From: Sphingobacterium puteale
GTDB lineage: Bacteria > Bacteroidota > Bacteroidia > Sphingobacteriales > Sphingobacteriaceae
Direction of reading: 5' to 3'
DNA length: 64,000 nt
NCBI RefSeq assembly: GCF_003627955.1
Contig: NZ_RBWS01000004.1
Coordinates: forward strand, 248,001 to 312,000
Both the position numbers and the translations under genes were made by a program. The notes beneath the pieces are model-generated. The model ran no database searches. It was not told the DNA's origin and worked only from the letters and a program-made list of their open reading frames with translations. Positions within the stretch are counted from its first letter, which is position 1; the number at the start of each line of letters is the position of its first letter. Below, in pieces: positions 6,270 through 60,317 of this stretch.

Positions 6270-6498
6270 GTGGTCTGGTAAACAGATTTTTGAATAATTT
6301 AAGAAATCAATAAATTATCGTTGTTGGTAGATCGTTCCTTCGTCTTATTTTCGGATCTTATTCGGACAGTCTGCGTTATTGACCAAGGTTGAGGTATTGA
6401 CCAGATGTTGACCAGTGATTTCCTGACCAACATCTAGCCGGAATCTGACTATACTCCGAATTTGGTGCGAAGAAAAGTGTGACTTAAATATGGAATAG
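6245..6498. repeat. Imperfect 19-bp direct repeat bracketing an intergenic segment
   Basis: The last codons of the rhamnosidase gene contain TGACTTAAATTTGGAATTG (6245-6263). A copy with two mismatches, TGACTTAAATATGGAATAG, lies at 6480-6498. The 216 bases between hold the degenerate 11-bp-phased segment. This could reflect insertion of the segment with duplication of the gene tail, or recombination. Confidence 0.5.
6351..6449. repeat. Degenerate 11-bp-phased repeat segment
   Basis: Adjacent 11-base units TCGGATCTTAT and TCGGACAGTCT (6351-6372) are followed by TATTGACCAGA and TGTTGACCAGT (6395-6416, also 11 bases apart). The word TTGACCA or CTGACCA recurs four times, and CGGAATCTGAC closes the segment. 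No coding potential or terminator is visible inside. The wording resembles the clearer array at 24200-24337. Confidence 0.5.
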
Positions 6499-13990: not shown

Positions 13991-16900
13991 ATGAAAATTA
14001 CCGAAATATCGATAAAACGTCCCAGTATAATTATCGTATTATTTATAATACTCACATTAGGCGGGTTGTTTTCCTATACTCAATTAGGGTACGAGTTAGT
14101 CCCTAAATTTGAGATCAACGTCATCACAGTGCAGACGGTTTATCCGGGGGCATCCCCCGCGGAGGTGGAGAGCTCTGTCACCAAGAAAATTGAGGATGCT
14201 ATTTCATCCTTGGAAAGTATCAAAAAAGTAGAATCGACCTCGCTTGAAGGGGTGTCGATCGTTATGATTACCCTTAACAATGGCGCTGACGTCAACTTTC
14301 TGCTTACTGATGCCCAGCGGAAGATAAATGCCGTCATAAACGACTTGCCTGATGATGTGGAGACACCCTCCCTGTCCAAGTTCTCGTTGGACGATGTCGC
14401 GATCATGAGTTTGGCTGTTACCTCAAACTTGTCCGAGAAAGAGTTATACGACCTCCTGGACAATAAAATCCAGCCTGTGTTTGCACGTATTAATGGGGTT
14501 GCAAAAGTAGACATGATTGGTGGTGAAGAACGTGAGATCCAAATTTCTGTGGATCCTAAGAAAATCGAAGGTTATGGATTGACAATCTCACAGGTGCAAC
14601 AAACTGTAGCAGCATCTAATTTGGATTTTCCTACAGGTAACGTAAGCACGCGTGATAATAGAACCACAATCCGGTTAGCGGGAAAGGTTACCTCAATTGA
14701 GGAGCTACGTAACTTGCCGATTACAACTCCGGCAGGTATTCAGATCTATTTACGTGATATTGCAGACGTTCAGGATGGTATCAAAGAAATTGAAAAAGTA
14801 GCTCGTTTGGACCGCCAGAATACTATTTTGTTGCAGGTCTTTAAACAATCGGATGCCAATGCAGTAGCTGTATCCGAAGCGGTAAAGAAAACCATCGCGG
14901 TACATGATAAAAATGGAAAGGTAATTAGCGGGGTTGAGAAGGATTATGCTGCGCAAAATATTAAAATTTTGGTGGCCAATGACTCTTCAGATTTTACCTT
15001 GAATGCGGCTGACAACGTAATCCATGATTTGATGATCGCAATTGCATTAGTAGGTTTTATTATGTTGTTTTTCTTACAGAGTTTGCGAAATGCTGCAATT
15101 ACAATGGTGGCGATTCCGCTGTCGTTGATTGCAACCTTCATTGGCTTACTTTTGATGGGCTATACGTTAAACTTGATGTCACTGTTGGGTTTATCCCTTG
15201 TGGTGGGTATCCTGGTGGATGATGCGATCGTTGTTATCGAGAATATTCACCGCCATATGGAGATGGGTAAAAATAAGGTGCGTGCGGCATTTGATGGTGC
15301 TTCCGAAATTGGATTTACCGTTACGGCGATTACTTTGGTTATCGTGGTGGTGTTCTTGCCAATCGCGATGTCTACAGGACTGGTTGCAAATATCCTGGCA
15401 CAATTCTGTGTGACCGTGATTATCTCTACCATGTTATCTTTACTTGTTTCATTCACGGTAGTTCCTTGGTTGTACTCACGTTTCGGAAAACTTGAACACT
15501 TGAGCAAAACATCTTTCTTTGGACGCATAATACATGGATTCGAGAGTGGTTTGACCGCGTTTACGCATTGGGTATCGGGATTGTTGGTGTGGTCTTTAAA
15601 AACACGATTGACTAAACTGGCTACGCTAGGTCTTGCGATAGGACTTTTGATTGCTTCATTTTCATTGGTAGTGAAGGGCTATATCGGTTCGGATTTTTTT
15701 CCGGGTATCGACCGTAAGGAATTTTTTATCCAATTGGAACTCGATAAAGACGCTTCCTTAGAAAAAACTAACTTATTGACACAGAAAGCTGAGGCTTATC
15801 TTAAATCCAAGCCAGACGTTAAAGAAATAATCACTACGGTCGGACAATCTTCGGATGGTATGGCTTCCACTACAGGATCTCGTTATAAATCCGAAATACA
15901 TGTTATTCTGGACAAGGAGAATTTTGAAGGAAATTCTCAGGTGTATTCCGCAACCTTAAAACGTGAATTGGAAAATAAACTGATTGGTGCCAAGGTTAAA
16001 ACTGTGAACGTTGGTATTATGGGAGCTGAGCAGGCGCCATTGAAGCTGACCATCATTGGTGCCTCGGTCGAAGACGCGCAAGAATTTGCGGAGAAAGCTG
16101 CGGACCAATTGCGCAAAATTCCGGGAGCTGCGGGAGTAAAACTGACCTCTGAAGCGGGTAACCCAGAGATCAATGTGAAAATTGACCGTAATAAAATGAC
16201 ATCCCTGGGCTTGAATGTATCGACCGTTGGTATGACTATGCAAACTGCATTTTCGGGAAATACCGATAATAAATATAGGGCAGGGGATAACGAGTATGAT
16301 ATTAATATCCGTTACACCGAAAGTGGTCGTGCAAATATCGACAATGTGCGTGATTTAAAGTTTATTAACAATAAGGGTGCTTCGATTTCATTGGAGCAAT
16401 TTGCCAACGTCACTTATGGTTCTGGCCCCACTTTGTTGGAACGTCGCGACAAGTCGCCGGCAGTATCCATTCAAGGACAGGCCATCGGTAGACCAATGGG
16501 TACCGTAGCGCAAGAGTGGCAGGCACAGTTTGAAAAATTGCCGCGTAAACCGGGAATCGTATTTATTTGGGGTGGTAACATGGAGAACCAAACCGAAGGT
16601 TTTGGAACTTTAGGAATTGCCTTATTGGCATCTATTATCCTGGTATATTTGGTAATGGTTGCTTTGTATGATAGTTTTATCACTCCATTTGTTGTCTTGT
16701 TCTCTATTCCATTGTCATTTATCGGGGCATTATTGTTCTTGGCTTTGGGAAATCAAACGTTGAATATATTCACGATTTTGGGTATCATTATGCTGATCGG
16801 ACTGGTAGCCAAGAATGCGATTATGCTGGTGGACTTTGCTAACCATCGTAAAGAAGCAGGAGATACCACCCACGATGCATTAGTTGCAGCAAACCATGCT

Positions 16901-17173
16901 CGTCTTCGTCCGATTTTGATGACGACAATCGCAATGGTATTCGGTATGATTCCAATAGCTATCGCCACAGGTGATGGTGCCGATATGAATAGAGGTTTGG
17001 CAATCGTAATTATTGGTGGTCTGTTGTCCTCTTTGTTCTTGACGCTAGTTGTCGTCCCAGTTGTCTATTCAATCTTCGATAGCTTGCAACGTCGTTTCGG
17101 AAAAAAGGAAAAGACTGATTATGAGGCGCTCATGGTAGAAGATTACGACCATGTTGATGTCGCAGAACATTAA
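13991..17173 (+). CDS. RND efflux pump, HAE1/AcrB family
   Basis: A 1060-residue inner-membrane antiporter that expels hydrophobic or amphiphilic compounds using the proton gradient. It starts with the family pattern ISIKRPSIIIVLFIILTLGG and shows two repeats of one plus five membrane helices. Visible landmarks are YPGASPAEVESSVTKKIE, the TM4 proton-relay region VGILVDDAIVVIENIHRH, FFPGIDRKEFFI, and the second-half IMLIGLVAKNAIMLVDFAN and ARLRPILMTTIAMVFGMIP. The Asp pair in TM4 needed for proton transport is present (VDDAIV). It lies 65 bases after the adaptor, and a strong terminator follows. Confidence 0.95.
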   Translation: MKITEISIKRPSIIIVLFIILTLGGLFSYTQLGYELVPKFEINVITVQTVYPGASPAEVESSVTKKIEDAISSLESIKKVESTSLEGVSIVMITLNNGADVNFLLTDAQRKINAVINDLPDDVETPSLSKFSLDDVAIMSLAVTSNLSEKELYDLLDNKIQPVFARINGVAKVDMIGGEEREIQISVDPKKIEGYGLTISQVQQTVAASNLDFPTGNVSTRDNRTTIRLAGKVTSIEELRNLPITTPAGIQIYLRDIADVQDGIKEIEKVARLDRQNTILLQVFKQSDANAVAVSEAVKKTIAVHDKNGKVISGVEKDYAAQNIKILVANDSSDFTLNAADNVIHDLMIAIALVGFIMLFFLQSLRNAAITMVAIPLSLIATFIGLLLMGYTLNLMSLLGLSLVVGILVDDAIVVIENIHRHMEMGKNKVRAAFDGASEIGFTVTAITLVIVVVFLPIAMSTGLVANILAQFCVTVIISTMLSLLVSFTVVPWLYSRFGKLEHLSKTSFFGRIIHGFESGLTAFTHWVSGLLVWSLKTRLTKLATLGLAIGLLIASFSLVVKGYIGSDFFPGIDRKEFFIQLELDKDASLEKTNLLTQKAEAYLKSKPDVKEIITTVGQSSDGMASTTGSRYKSEIHVILDKENFEGNSQVYSATLKRELENKLIGAKVKTVNVGIMGAEQAPLKLTIIGASVEDAQEFAEKAADQLRKIPGAAGVKLTSEAGNPEINVKIDRNKMTSLGLNVSTVGMTMQTAFSGNTDNKYRAGDNEYDINIRYTESGRANIDNVRDLKFINNKGASISLEQFANVTYGSGPTLLERRDKSPAVSIQGQAIGRPMGTVAQEWQAQFEKLPRKPGIVFIWGGNMENQTEGFGTLGIALLASIILVYLVMVALYDSFITPFVVLFSIPLSFIGALLFLALGNQTLNIFTILGIIMLIGLVAKNAIMLVDFANHRKEAGDTTHDALVAANHARLRPILMTTIAMVFGMIPIAIATGDGADMNRGLAIVIIGGLLSSLFLTLVVVPVVYSIFDSLQRRFGKKEKTDYEALMVEDYDHVDVAEH

Positions 17174-17195
17174 ACATATATCAATTTTACAAAAG

Positions 17196-17229
17196 AAAGG
17201 AGGCTAAGTTATTGGCCTCCTTTTTTTTG
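17196..17229 (+). terminator. Rho-independent terminator of the tetR-efflux operon
   Basis: A 9-bp stem AAAGGAGGC/GCCTCCTTT with a 10-base loop, followed by a run of T. It lies 23 bases after the pump stop. Confidence 0.9.
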
Positions 17230-17325
17230 TATTAAATTTAGGTTAATCAATCGATTGCATAGATATTTTTTATTACATTGCGACCGCATTAACAAAATAT
17301 ATATATACTTAAAATTGAGACAAGC

Positions 17326-19167
17326 ATGTGTGGAATTGTAGGATACACAGGTTACCGTCAGGCGTATGGTATCGTCATTGACGGATTGAAAAAATTAGAA
17401 TACCGCGGTTATGACAGTGCAGGAGTCGCACTACACAAAGGTGAACATGTTGATGTTTACAAAAAGACGGGAAAAGTCGTAAATTTGGAAGAATTCGTTT
17501 ACGGTCAGGACCTTCAGTCAACAACAGGAATGGGGCATACCCGATGGGCCACTCATGGTGAGCCTTCGGACCGAAATGCGCATCCACATTACTCAAACAG
17601 TGGACGCATCGCAATGATTCATAACGGTATCATTGAAAATTATGCATCTTTAAAATCAGAATTAATTAATAAAGGTTATCATTTTAAAAGTGATACGGAT
17701 ACAGAAGTACTCGTTAACTTTATCGAAGAAATCCAATTACAGAATGAGTGTCCTCTGGAAGAGGCCATTCGCATTGCTTTAAAAAGAGTCGTCGGTGCAT
17801 ATGTGATTCTCGTCTTAGAAGCTGGTCACCCAGATCGGATTATTGCAGCCAGAAAGGGGAGCCCGCTGGTCATCGGAATAGGTAAAAACGAACACTTTCT
17901 AGGGTCAGACGCTTCGCCAATGTTGGCCTATACCAAAGAGGTTGTTTATATCAATGACTACGAACTGGCGATTATAACGCCAGAAGAGCTGATTCTAAAA
18001 AATTTGGGGAATGAACGTATCACCCCGTATATCCAAAAGCTGGATCTGGAGTTATCGGCTATTGAAAAGGGTGGCTACGACCATTTTATGCTCAAAGAAA
18101 TTTTTGAACAGCCGGATACCATCTACGATTCGATGCGTGGTCGTCTGGATCTGCAGGCGAAACAGATTATTCTTAGTGGAATCGAGAAGTATGCGAATGA
18201 GATCAGCAACACCAATCGGATTGTGATTGTGGCATGTGGTACAAGCTGGCATGCCGGATTAATTGCAGAATATGTCATAGAAGAATTATGCCGCATCAAC
18301 GTTGAAGTGGAATATGCGTCTGAATTCCGTTACCGTAATCCAGTGATCCATCCCGGAGATGTTATTTTGGCCATTTCACAAAGCGGGGAGACTGCGGATA
18401 CCTTGGTTGCGTTGGAGAATGCAAAAAAACAGGGCGCTATAATTTTGGGCGTAGTGAATGTGGTAGGCTCATCCATTGCACGTCTTTCAGATGCAGGCGC
18501 TTATACGCATGCGGGGCCTGAAATCGGCGTGGCAAGTACAAAAGCATTTACGGCGCAGCTGACTGTCCTCAACCTGATCGCATTAAAAATTGCGGCGTTA
18601 AAAGGAACGATTTCCGACGAGCGTTTTCTGAAACTGTCGGAAGAATTGCATGAGGTTCCCGGGAAAGTACAGTGGATTTTGGATACGCAAATCGAAAAGA
18701 TTCAACAAATAGCAAAAAAATATAAAGACGCGAGGGATTTCTTGTTTCTTGGCAGAGGGTATAATTTCCCGGTTGCCCTGGAAGGTGCGCTAAAGCTAAA
18801 AGAGATCTCTTATATTCATGCCGAAGGTTATCCGGCGGCGGAGATGAAACATGGCCCTATTGCTTTGGTCGATGAAAACTTGCCCGTTGTTTTCGTCGCC
18901 ACCAAAGATGCTTATCATGAAAAAATTGTTTCCAATATCCAGGAGATAAAGGCCAGGAAAGGGAAGATTATTTCCGTAGTTACCAGAGGTGATGCCGTTT
19001 CCGAAAATCTGTCGGATGATTTTATGGAAATTCCAGAGGCAGATGAGGTTATTGCTCCTTTAATCTCCGTTGTTCCTTTGCAGTTATTGTCTTATTATAT
19101 TGGTGTGGAGTTAGGCTTAGACGTTGACAAACCTCGTAATCTCGCCAAATCTGTCACAGTAGAATAG
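17326..19167 (+). CDS. glmS: Glutamine:fructose-6-phosphate aminotransferase (isomerising)
   Basis: Makes glucosamine 6-phosphate from fructose 6-phosphate and glutamine, the entry to UDP-GlcNAc, peptidoglycan and LPS. The 613 residues begin MCGIVGYTG with the N-terminal nucleophile Cys2. The glutaminase half contains GYDSAGVAL, HTRWATHG and HNGIIENY. Two SIS sugar-isomerase domains follow (ACGTSWHAG, ISQSGETADT, LGRGYNFPVALEGALKLKEISYIHAEGYPAAEMKHGPIAL split over the usual positions), and the end DKPRNLAKSVTVE is typical. I see no glmS ribozyme upstream. The DUF4954 gene follows after 7 bases. Confidence 0.98.
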   Translation: MCGIVGYTGYRQAYGIVIDGLKKLEYRGYDSAGVALHKGEHVDVYKKTGKVVNLEEFVYGQDLQSTTGMGHTRWATHGEPSDRNAHPHYSNSGRIAMIHNGIIENYASLKSELINKGYHFKSDTDTEVLVNFIEEIQLQNECPLEEAIRIALKRVVGAYVILVLEAGHPDRIIAARKGSPLVIGIGKNEHFLGSDASPMLAYTKEVVYINDYELAIITPEELILKNLGNERITPYIQKLDLELSAIEKGGYDHFMLKEIFEQPDTIYDSMRGRLDLQAKQIILSGIEKYANEISNTNRIVIVACGTSWHAGLIAEYVIEELCRINVEVEYASEFRYRNPVIHPGDVILAISQSGETADTLVALENAKKQGAIILGVVNVVGSSIARLSDAGAYTHAGPEIGVASTKAFTAQLTVLNLIALKIAALKGTISDERFLKLSEELHEVPGKVQWILDTQIEKIQQIAKKYKDARDFLFLGRGYNFPVALEGALKLKEISYIHAEGYPAAEMKHGPIALVDENLPVVFVATKDAYHEKIVSNIQEIKARKGKIISVVTRGDAVSENLSDDFMEIPEADEVIAPLISVVPLQLLSYYIGVELGLDVDKPRNLAKSVTVE

Positions 19168-22868: not shown

Positions 22869-24059
22869 TTAAAATTCACGGTCGACATCCTTGTCTCCAC
22901 GGCCAGATAGGTTAACTATAGCAAGTTTGTTTTTATCTTTCAATAGTTTGACGGCTAGGGCAACAGCATGTGAAGACTCGATTGCCGGGATGATTCCTTC
23001 TAATTTGGAAAGCAATTTATAGGCGGCGATTGCTTCGTCGTCCGTAATAGGATAATAGTTGGCTCGATTGCTGTCCTTTAAAGCGGCATGCTGAGGCGAT
23101 ATGCCCGGATAATCCAGTCCAGCAGATACGGATGTGGATGGGATCGGATTGCCTGTATCGTCAACGAGGCAGTAGGAATAGGTACCTTGAAATACAGTCG
23201 GTTTACCAAACGACAGGGTAGCGGCTGTCTTAGGGTAAGTACCTGATCCACCGCCTTCACCGCCATTGATTTCAACATCTTGATCATCCAGAAAACCTGA
23301 AAATAACCCAATGGCATTTGATCCACCGCCCACACAGGCAAAGATACTGTCCGGAAGACGCCCCTCCTGTTCAAGAATTTGTTGTCGGGCTTCTTTGCCG
23401 ATCACACTCTGAAAATAGCCCACCATTTTAGGATAGGGATGCGGTCCGACATGTGAACCAAGAAGATAATAAGATGTTGGATTTTCGACATAATACATCA
23501 AGGCGGCGTCAACAGCATCTTTAAGTGTTCGGCTTCCTAGATTTGTTGTGACAACCTCAGCCCCCAGCAACTCCATCCGTTTCACATTCAAGGCCTGGCG
23601 GGCGGCATCAATTTCGCCCATAAATACCTTGCATGGAATATTTAAGAGAGCAGCGGCGGTCGCGGTTGCAACTCCATGCTGACCAGCTCCGGTTTCGGCA
23701 ATAATTTCCGTAGCGCCCATTTGTTTTGCCAACAGGATCTGACCGATACAATTGTTGATTTTGTGTGAACCGGTATGATTCAGGTCTTCCCGCTTTAAGT
23801 AGATTCTAGATCCTACATATTCACTCAGGTTCTTTGCAAAATACAAAGGTGAGGGGCGTCCCACATAATGTTTGAGGATGGAGATGAATTCTTTTTGGAA
23901 TTCTTCTTTCTGAACATGGCTATCAAAAAATTCGGCTAATTTATTTAACTGATTTTCCAGAACAGGTGGGATATATGACCCGCCATACTCGCCATATTTA
24001 CCATTGTATTGAAGCATGTTTTCGTTGGCTTCGACAGATGCGCACTTTTCTAGACTCAT
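22869..24059 (-). CDS. trpB: Tryptophan synthase beta chain
   Basis: A PLP enzyme that condenses indole with serine to tryptophan. The 396-residue protein has GEYGGSYIP, the PLP lysine in LNHTGSHKINN (Lys100), ETGAGQHGVATA, the phosphate-binding CVGGGSNAIG, and the TrpB1-type end VNLSGRGDKDV. A second in-frame ATG at 24017 would remove 14 N-terminal residues that are unusual for the family; I keep the longer form with reservation. No trpA or other trp gene is adjacent, so it is an orphan here. The next gene downstream is an unrelated L,D-transpeptidase. Confidence 0.95.
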   Translation of the reverse strand: MSLEKCASVEANENMLQYNGKYGEYGGSYIPPVLENQLNKLAEFFDSHVQKEEFQKEFISILKHYVGRPSPLYFAKNLSEYVGSRIYLKREDLNHTGSHKINNCIGQILLAKQMGATEIIAETGAGQHGVATATAAALLNIPCKVFMGEIDAARQALNVKRMELLGAEVVTTNLGSRTLKDAVDAALMYYVENPTSYYLLGSHVGPHPYPKMVGYFQSVIGKEARQQILEQEGRLPDSIFACVGGGSNAIGLFSGFLDDQDVEINGGEGGGSGTYPKTAATLSFGKPTVFQGTYSYCLVDDTGNPIPSTSVSAGLDYPGISPQHAALKDSNRANYYPITDDEAIAAYKLLSKLEGIIPAIESSHAVALAVKLLKDKNKLAIVNLSGRGDKDVDREF

Positions 24060-24137: not shown

Positions 24138-24199
24138 AAAACAAGCTAATTTTGTTTATGGAGTCCGTGTTTTAGGTCCGAGTCGATGATTATTTGGGT

Positions 24200-24337
24200 C
24201 ATATTCGAGGCTGATTCGGGCCTGAATCGCGTCTGAAAGCAGGTCTGACTAATATTATAGTGTGGTGAATTCGTGCTGAATCCGGGTTTTACTCGGACTC
24301 ACCACGGACTCACCGCGGACTCATGTCGGATTCATGG
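24200..24337. repeat. Degenerate 11-bp-phased repeat array
   Basis: Units of exactly 11 bases follow one another. First come CATATTCGAGG, CTGATTCGGGC, CTGAATCGCGT and CTGAAAGCAGG (24200-24243). Then come GTGAATTCGTG and CTGAATCCGGG (24265-24286). Last come CGGACTCACCA, CGGACTCACCG, CGGACTCATGT and CGGATTCATGG (24294-24337). The shared core is about CNGANTC. The segment is clearly richer in G+C than neighbouring intergenic DNA, and a convincing gene is absent. It lies upstream of trpB and beyond the lgt terminator. Confidence 0.7.
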
Positions 24338-24404
24338 TGACCCAGATGCGACCCCGTTTCGGAACAGGCGGCTACCGCGGTCGGACCGAAGCCGAAGCAT
24401 AACG

Positions 24405-24437
24405 ATAAAAAAAGGCATCTTTTGTAAGAAAGATGCC
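24405..24437 (-). terminator. Rho-independent terminator of lgt
   Basis: On the minus strand a 9-bp stem GGCATCTTT/AAAGATGCC with a 6-base loop is followed by seven T. It is 45 bases after the lgt stop. Confidence 0.88.
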
Positions 24438-24481: not shown

Positions 24482-25297
24482 TTAAGCTTTTGGTTTTCGG
24501 AAAATAAAATAGAGACCGACCAAAATAAAAGGTATACTCAAAAGCTGTCCCATATTGAGCAACATGCTTTGTTCAAAGGCTTCTTGATCAATTTTAAAAT
24601 GTTCCAACACCATCCGCGCACCAAATAATAAAACCATAAAAATACCGAACAATTTTCCTTTTTGACGATTCGGGTTCGATTTGAATAAGAAGCCGATAAT
24701 AATAAAGATGATAATATAGGCGATGGCCTCATAGAGCTGGCCCGGATGGCGGGGGATATTGTCATGACGCTCAAAAATTATTGCCCAGGGCATATCCGTA
24801 GGTGTGCCCACCATTTCCGAATTGAAAAAATTACCAATCCGGATCAATGCGCCGGCGATAGGTACCACCACAACCAATCGGTCCGCTAACCATAAAAAGT
24901 CAGTCTTTGTCTTGCGGCAGAAGAGGTAGAGTGCGACAAGGATACCAATGGCTCCACCATGGGAGGCCAATCCTGCAAAACCGGTCACCTGGAATCCGTT
25001 TTTATCCCATTTGAAAGGGAGGAAAATTTCGAGGATATGGTCTTTATAATAGTCAAAATCGTAGAACAGGCAATGACCAAGTCGTGCGCCGATCAGTGTG
25101 CCGAGGAAGATATAGATGGAGAGCTGATCCAGTTGCTCTTGCGTGCGGCCTTCTTTTTTGAAAATGCGCAACATAATAACATAGGACACAAAGAATGCGA
25201 GGAGCCAACATAGGGCGTAATAGCGTAGGGCAAATGCGCCAAAGTTGAACATCTCGGGATCTACGTTCCAATGTATTGCACTTAGTATTGAATTCAT
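24482..25297 (-). CDS. lgt: Prolipoprotein diacylglyceryl transferase
   Basis: An inner-membrane enzyme that moves diacylglycerol from phosphatidylglycerol to the lipobox cysteine of prolipoproteins. The 271-residue protein has seven likely membrane helices, the HGG motif region FAGLASHGGAIG, the family signature IRIGNFFNSEMVG with its essential Arg and Asn, and RHPGQLYEAIAYI. It is needed for the many lipoproteins in this window. It is transcribed alone, divergently from the M42 peptidase gene. Confidence 0.96.
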   Translation of the reverse strand: MNSILSAIHWNVDPEMFNFGAFALRYYALCWLLAFFVSYVIMLRIFKKEGRTQEQLDQLSIYIFLGTLIGARLGHCLFYDFDYYKDHILEIFLPFKWDKNGFQVTGFAGLASHGGAIGILVALYLFCRKTKTDFLWLADRLVVVVPIAGALIRIGNFFNSEMVGTPTDMPWAIIFERHDNIPRHPGQLYEAIAYIIIFIIIGFLFKSNPNRQKGKLFGIFMVLLFGARMVLEHFKIDQEAFEQSMLLNMGQLLSIPFILVGLYFIFRKPKA

Positions 25298-60111: not shown

Positions 60112-60119
60112 CAAAGTTA
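60112..60119 (-). promoter_or_regulatory. -7 box of the outer-membrane protein gene
   Basis: TAACTTTG on the minus strand matches TAnnTTTG. No clear TTTG at the -33 distance. The rest of 60037-60279 is AT-rich with no gene; GTCAATTTGAC at about 60264 is a short inverted repeat. Confidence 0.4.
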
Positions 60120-60279
60120 TTTTATTTTATTGTCACTATATTGTCTAGATATTTTATTAAAATCGTAAGTTATAGTGGTTCAATTGATTAAATTTTATGT
60201 TTTTTTTATAAATTTCTTATTGTTTTAACAATGTTTGAAAAGTGTTGACTTTTTGTAATTATTTGTCAATTTGACGTAA

Positions 60280-60317
60280 GAAAACAAAAAAAGTCCTATA
60301 TCAATTGATATAGGACT
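60280..60317 (-). terminator. Rho-independent terminator of grpE-dnaJ
   Basis: A perfect 26-base palindrome at 60292-60317 (arms AGTCCTATATCAA and complement), followed on the minus strand by seven T. It lies 27 bases after the dnaJ stop. Confidence 0.9.

Follow-up and report, generated by a model that had tools for sequence, protein, structure and literature searches.

Introduction

Arrays of 11-bp units are a feature of the parC centromere of plasmid R1, with ParR. The arrays that we describe here share this unit length but differ in being composed of inverted arms, in lying on the chromosome, and in comprising many unit types, and neither a ribbon-helix-helix partner nor ParM was among the Pfam hits of the scanned neighbor genes. 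REP elements with their RAYT (TnpA-REP) proteins, as well as REPINs, resemble these arrays in another way, i.e., a gene family has a cognate palindromic repeat beside it and gene-free copies of this repeat are dispersed across intergenic regions, an arrangement that we also found here, though not for the unit type of the array under study itself. However, REPs are palindromic repeats of 20-40 bp (as given in part of PMC3733652), while we observed 150-280 bp of 11-bp units (ca. 240 bp for the element under study). Their partner is a Y1 (HUH) transposase, whereas the protein family found here matches only DUF6266 in Pfam, is FN3-like in its C-terminal half, and showed no transposase signature at the sequence level. 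Finally, the E. coli gyrase motif consists of two phased arms around a center, and both BIME-2 elements and the regions downstream of rRNA operons are enriched in gyrase sites (PMC6379681 and PMC12393610). Strong gyrase sites and BIMEs share two helically phased arms and extragenic positions with our arrays but differ from them in that the units here are sequence-specific and tied to one gene family.

No described family considered here fits. Searches of Rfam and of the literature gave no match, in line with the initial annotation, which knew of no named element of this kind. The papers that we searched included none combining "11-bp repeats", Bacteroidetes, and intergenic location and none mentioning DUF6266, and the listed matches on Sphingobacterium repeats contained no relevant one. 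We report that the array is genuine and phased and belongs to a class tied to DUF6266, that this class is large and fast-changing in Sphingobacterium, and that arrays and DUF6266 genes together suggest an undescribed partnership of a protein and a DNA array. Phased extragenic repeats, so far unexplained, are now tied to a protein family of unknown function.

A phased two-armed array between trpB and lgt

The window is a stretch of 64,000 nucleotides from Sphingobacterium puteale, for which the initial annotation had proposed an array of degenerate 11-bp units at 24200-24337. The autocorrelation that it had called for confirmed this array with self-matches of 0.575 at lag 11 and 0.431 at lag 22, compared to a best match over lags 2-40 that never exceeded 0.42 in 2000 dinucleotide shuffles of the same bases. 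Tandem Repeats Finder reported the array in pieces only, all with period 11. It is intergenic as described, with both flanking genes on the minus strand. For the core, CGGACTCACCA is a better description than the proposed CNGANTC. The "gaps" correspond to weak periodicity at ca. 24240-24270, and CG steps share one phase on both sides (24206, 24217, 24228 ... 24294). The annotated interval proved too short for the full element, which we bounded by alignment to six other copies in the same genome and by a gapless phase display of 67 elements. The features are as follows:

22869..24059, minus strand: trpB, left neighbor
24161..24400, plus strand: whole phased element (ca. 240 bp), from the left terminal unit GAGTCCGTGT to the last right-arm unit
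24204..24240, plus strand: left arm of TTCG-centered 11-bp units aimed at the center (CG steps at 24206, 24217, and 24228; phase counts)
24241..24270, plus strand: center with weak periodicity, the gap of the initial annotation
24271..24334, plus strand: core with the arm junction ATCCGGGTTTTACTCGGACTC followed by CGGACTCA units starting at 24294
24335..24400, plus strand: right arm of degenerate CGAA/CGGA-type units (sequence, phase counts)
24405..24437, minus strand: intrinsic terminator of lgt, on whose T-run side the element stops (from occupied versus empty sites)
24482..25297, minus strand: lgt, right neighbor
6340..6470, plus strand: weaker segment with TTCGG, TTGACCAG, and CCGAA units preceding a tRNA-like sequence, a probable relative only

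The weaker likeness that had been noted at 6351-6449 is present (lag-11 match of 0.409, attained in 1/2000 shuffles), but this segment stays under the threshold of an unbiased period scan, and we therefore regard it as a probable relative only. Another part of the window (60117-60300) is A-T-rich with high self-match at many lags, i.e., of low complexity without a phased array.

Copies across the genus keep one helical phase

A first search revealed six further matching places in the same genome besides the query, and more queries together with a 19-base pattern raised the total to at least nine sites. The genus-wide check suggested by the initial annotation likewise found copies in other Sphingobacterium. 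Scanning one genome per species for the exact pattern yielded 57 stretches, mostly in Sphingobacterium, and 16/59 related genomes matched the pattern with up to two mismatches, all of them Sphingobacterium, with zero matches to a backward control pattern in these 59 genomes. Of 75 distinct pattern loci, we dropped eight as not Sphingobacterium and retained 67 distinct copies. One match in a Bacteroidales MAG (L085:3386-3426, minus strand) consists of ACACGGACTCA units inside what by eye is a valyl-tRNA synthetase frame.

The elements are composed of a left terminal GAGTCCGTGT unit, TTCG-centered units, a weak middle, the CGGACTCACCA core, and CGAA-type units, in this order. Across all 67, self-match peaks at lags 11, 22, 33, and 44 in both arms, with flat flanks. 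Relative to the core, TTCG falls into one of the 11 possible phases in 137/160 cases in the left arm and CGAA in 98/126 cases in the right arm, so that CG steps are spaced at 11 bp along a single helical face throughout the element. This strongly supports the phasing to one helical face that had been proposed at the outset, and for the window array we favor the reading that goes with it, namely proteins putatively bound along this face.

The other suggestion of the initial annotation, DNA bending, was not supported: the amplitude of G+C phasing within units exceeded that of permuted units in some arrays only, and curved DNA was rejected for this inconsistency. The same result bears on a reading in which DNA gyrase or a nucleoid protein wraps DNA at the arrays, as at strong gyrase sites. 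The two-armed motif of gyrase sites and the locations at which they are over-represented (see above) speak for it, but the known gyrase signal is G+C phasing, while here conservation lies in the letters of the units and the strength of G+C phasing is inconsistent. Wrapping would also leave the association with DUF6266 unexplained, and we regard it as very improbable.

Even less probable in our view is that the element acts as a structured or repeat-bearing RNA. One strand of the window copy does fold better than shuffles (z -4.3), but this is expected of any inverted array. Pairing into one hairpin should give a single axis of complementarity, yet the complementarity of the arms outside the core is about equal at neighboring multiples of 11. 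Covariation at the hairpin axis was absent (pairing excess over column expectation of +0.009, within the noise of other offsets), as was strand asymmetry, with G-T mismatches as frequent as A-C, and Rfam had no match to the element. An RNA hairpin with conserved, covarying secondary structure was rejected on these grounds.

Genomic surroundings and turnover of the elements

We scored the genomic context of 57/67 loci including orthologous ones (ten had no scorable neighbor pair). The right neighbor ends toward the element in 47/57 of these, with 28 elements located between convergent genes and five between divergent ones. Four elements (L063, L106, L117, and L131) precede co-oriented 16S rRNA genes by ca. 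1.1-1.2 kb. An orientation with replication was considered and rejected, since the pattern in one genome (G016) was due to the copies that precede rRNA operons. L063 and L131 contain a second array after the first, located in the interval from the CGGACTCA element to the 16S gene:

L063:3000-3120, L131:1686-1800, and L147:789-932: second inverted 11-bp array, unit ACCTAAACAAA

Arrays of this ACCTAAACAAA type match those found upstream of DUF6266 genes in L306 and L308.

The region between trpB and lgt allowed us to compare occupied and empty sites. Among 30 surveyed loci (15 of them without trpB at this place), nine genomes are occupied, with intergenic regions of 425-736 bp, and six are empty, with 156-158 bp and the same flanks; this presence and absence at orthologous sites, as known for MITEs, could reflect either gain in one lineage or loss in the other. 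Where present, the insert starts after ACAA(G) and stops at the A-run of the lgt terminator, which would hide any target duplication. The array types at this site are discordant with the kinship of lgt: arrays of G093 and G008 are 0.91 identical over 281 bp with lgt at 0.878, while those of G021 and G008 are 0.76 identical with lgt at 0.962. The arrays appear to turn over as units.

These clean sites, the discordance, and the right neighbors ending toward the element would all suit a miniature mobile element that inserts next to terminators, with the arrays as its subterminal transposase sites and DUF6266 as a passenger or neighbor. Such an element would also account for the terminal inverted repeat ACCAAATT..AATTTGGT of some arrays, which is long and perfect in L138. 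However, we found no transposase between the arms and saw no terminal repeats in the CGGACTCA family, and searches for copies on plasmids or phages came back empty (a DUF6266 protein, L292, in both; the element copy L006 in plasmids; one unit pattern in viral contigs). We therefore consider this explanation unlikely, though the least so of the alternatives. Terminal inverted repeats as a general feature were rejected because they are clear only in some unit types. In L138:7800-8000, the inverted repeat GCTTATTACCAAATT bounds the array, and further ACCAAATT/AATTTGGT ends are found at L252 and, in poorer form, at L159.

A wider class of period-11 arrays

Beyond what the initial annotation had seen, arrays of this architecture but with other unit sequences occur scattered across the genome, and this wider class accompanies DUF6266 genes. 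In a scan that contrasted matches at lags p, 2p, and 3p with those of other periods, 1.2 Mb of G016 (60 stretches, two picked beside an array cluster already seen and the rest on a 100-kb grid) contained 17 windows of period 11 at d>=0.15 and ten at d>=0.2, compared to at most five and zero, respectively, for periods 7-10 and 12-20. Period 11 was narrowly ahead at d>=0.15 in 464 kb of the S. puteale genome (three windows versus 0-2). The scan found one period-11 window in 361 kb of other Sphingobacterium and none at d>=0.15 in 328 kb of other families. Unit sequences vary widely and include CCCTGTTAAC, CACTGAATAAG, CACCGAACAAG, CCTAAAC, and others. Self-reverse-complementarity above shuffles (<=1/100), a sign of inverted arms, was found in 17/29 arrays. 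At L164, an IS110-family transposase gene (16019-17281, minus strand) is flanked by arrays (15233-15785 and 17353-17463), with three different ones in series on its 3' side and a single weak array 5' of it.

Arrays lie upstream of DUF6266 genes

Four of 17 sampled arrays are located directly upstream of DUF6266 (PF19781) genes, three of which were called by Pfam and the fourth (L138) by a profile from a DUF6266 alignment that already included L138. Pfam-level hits to DUF6266 number 11 each in G000 and G016 and zero in 14 control genomes. All 15 operon-leading DUF6266 genes have an upstream array, with 11 as the best of periods 7-20, and across the two genomes this amounts to 16/16 leading genes including L138; the 16 loci contain five orthologous pairs and hence represent about 11 independent loci. 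By contrast, none of the seven second genes of DUF6266 tandem pairs (0/7) has an upstream array. The thresholds for calling arrays were fixed after inspection and applied identically to 1048 upstream windows of longer reading frames as controls, of which 13 passed. Four of these 13 belong to DUF6266 genes, leaving a background of 9/1044 (Fisher p 2e-29 against 16/16).

Most arrays away from DUF6266 resemble in sequence those at this home position: 12/15 match one of the 16 arrays upstream of DUF6266 genes with scores of 25-71 (null maximum 16.6). No clear home match was obtained for L164a, for the 6351 segment (15.8 against a null maximum of 13.8), or for the window array (15.0 against a null maximum of 14.2). 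Outside the genus, DUF6266 loci L314 and L317 have upstream arrays, but long arrays are absent upstream of 8/10 hits of the family (L309-L313, L316, L318, and L319). Within the genus, the DUF6266 hit L315 has no long upstream array.

These data also weigh on the idea that the arrays lack function and arise from replication slippage and template switching in steps of 11 bp. Orthologous copies indeed differ by whole 11-bp units (L055/L062, L083/L037, and L071/L067), as this would predict. However, the phase of the CG steps is kept in copies that otherwise differ widely, and slippage accounts neither for the association with DUF6266 upstream regions nor for the lack of anything comparable in the 328 kb of other families, so that we find it improbable.

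The window's own unit type has an indirect link to DUF6266

For the unit type of the window array itself, the link to DUF6266 is indirect. Across 36 genomes, CGGACTCA counts correlate with DUF6266 counts (Spearman 0.83), although each of the two counts also tracks genome size (0.69 and 0.68) and shared ancestry. Each of the 16 genomes with CGGACTCA hits has three or more DUF6266 matches, and the eight DUF6266-free genomes have no CGGACTCA hits. The genome of Flavobacterium stagni carries both a CGGACTCA array and DUF6266, while four Bacteroidales MAGs with CGGACTCA hits gave no DUF6266 match. By eye from the coordinates of these 36 genomes, no CGGACTCA site among the matches listed is less than 5 kb from an intact DUF6266 gene; the nearest is a broken gene in G016, 1.7 kb from a weak site.

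Three DUF6266 loci from other families (L309, L310, and L311) carry the 11-bp-spaced pairs AAAGCCGTGTTAAGTCCG, AAGTCCGTGTCAAGTCCA, and AAGTCCGTGTCAAGTCCG upstream, each 3-4 mismatches from the window motif GAGTCCGTGTTGAGTCCG and matched by 0/200 shuffles. In the same motif test, L312 was matched by 10/200 shuffles and the other seven loci were no better than shuffles. L296 of the S. puteale genome carries AGGTCCGTGTAAAGTCCG (1/60 shuffles).

A possible protein-array partnership and its partner

We give an even chance to the explanation that these arrays are a class of protein-binding DNA sites whose home is upstream of DUF6266 genes and which spread as orphans, with the window array as one such orphan copy. 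It builds on the observed phasing, the DUF6266 association, the matches of orphans to home arrays for other unit types, and the presence or absence at one site. The 11-bp sites on one helix face, arranged in two inverted arms, would bind a protein at the DNA level, and each DUF6266 lineage would have its own unit sequence. Copies may move or be exchanged as units and settle in other intergenic regions, frequently next to terminators or in front of rRNA operons. The binder could be DUF6266 itself, probably through the N-terminal part, or a regulator belonging to its locus. A more specific proposal that we hold only tentatively is that DUF6266 is a new family of array-reading DNA-binding proteins with lineage-specific units and gene-free spread, in which protein and array co-diversify. 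If DUF6266 proteins bind their own arrays, Sphingobacterium genomes like that of S. puteale would each contain several co-evolving protein-array pairs, a ready-made system in which to study shifts in DNA specificity and the spread of gene-free repeats.

The model of a DUF6266 protein (mean pLDDT 87.8) aligns at residues 112-214 to fibronectin III domains (Z 10.8, rmsd 2.1 over 93 residues). No fold match outside this predicted FN3-like part was among the matches listed, which barely probe that part, and the N-terminal strands and helices modeled alone are of low confidence (mean pLDDT 64). The second genes of DUF6266 pairs lack the N-terminal strands. Array similarity tracks the N-terminal part of DUF6266 (rho 0.32, 0/999 permutations) more than the FN3 part (rho 0.16, 45/999 permutations), which may be a weak pointer to the former, confounded by common descent. 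Some DUF6266 loci also encode a LytTR response regulator, a MerR/HTH_17-like gene, a CHAP peptidase, or DUF5675, so that a regulator could read some arrays, while single-gene loci argue for DUF6266 itself as the reader.

PHROGs and PADLOC gave no convincing match and NCBIfam none over the cut-off. Among the DUF6266 operons that we examined (L292, L289, L293, L295, L287, and L290), several have a second DUF6266 copy without the N-terminus. These operons continue with either DUF5675 or a small membrane-like protein plus a CHAP peptidase, resembling a lysis or export cassette.
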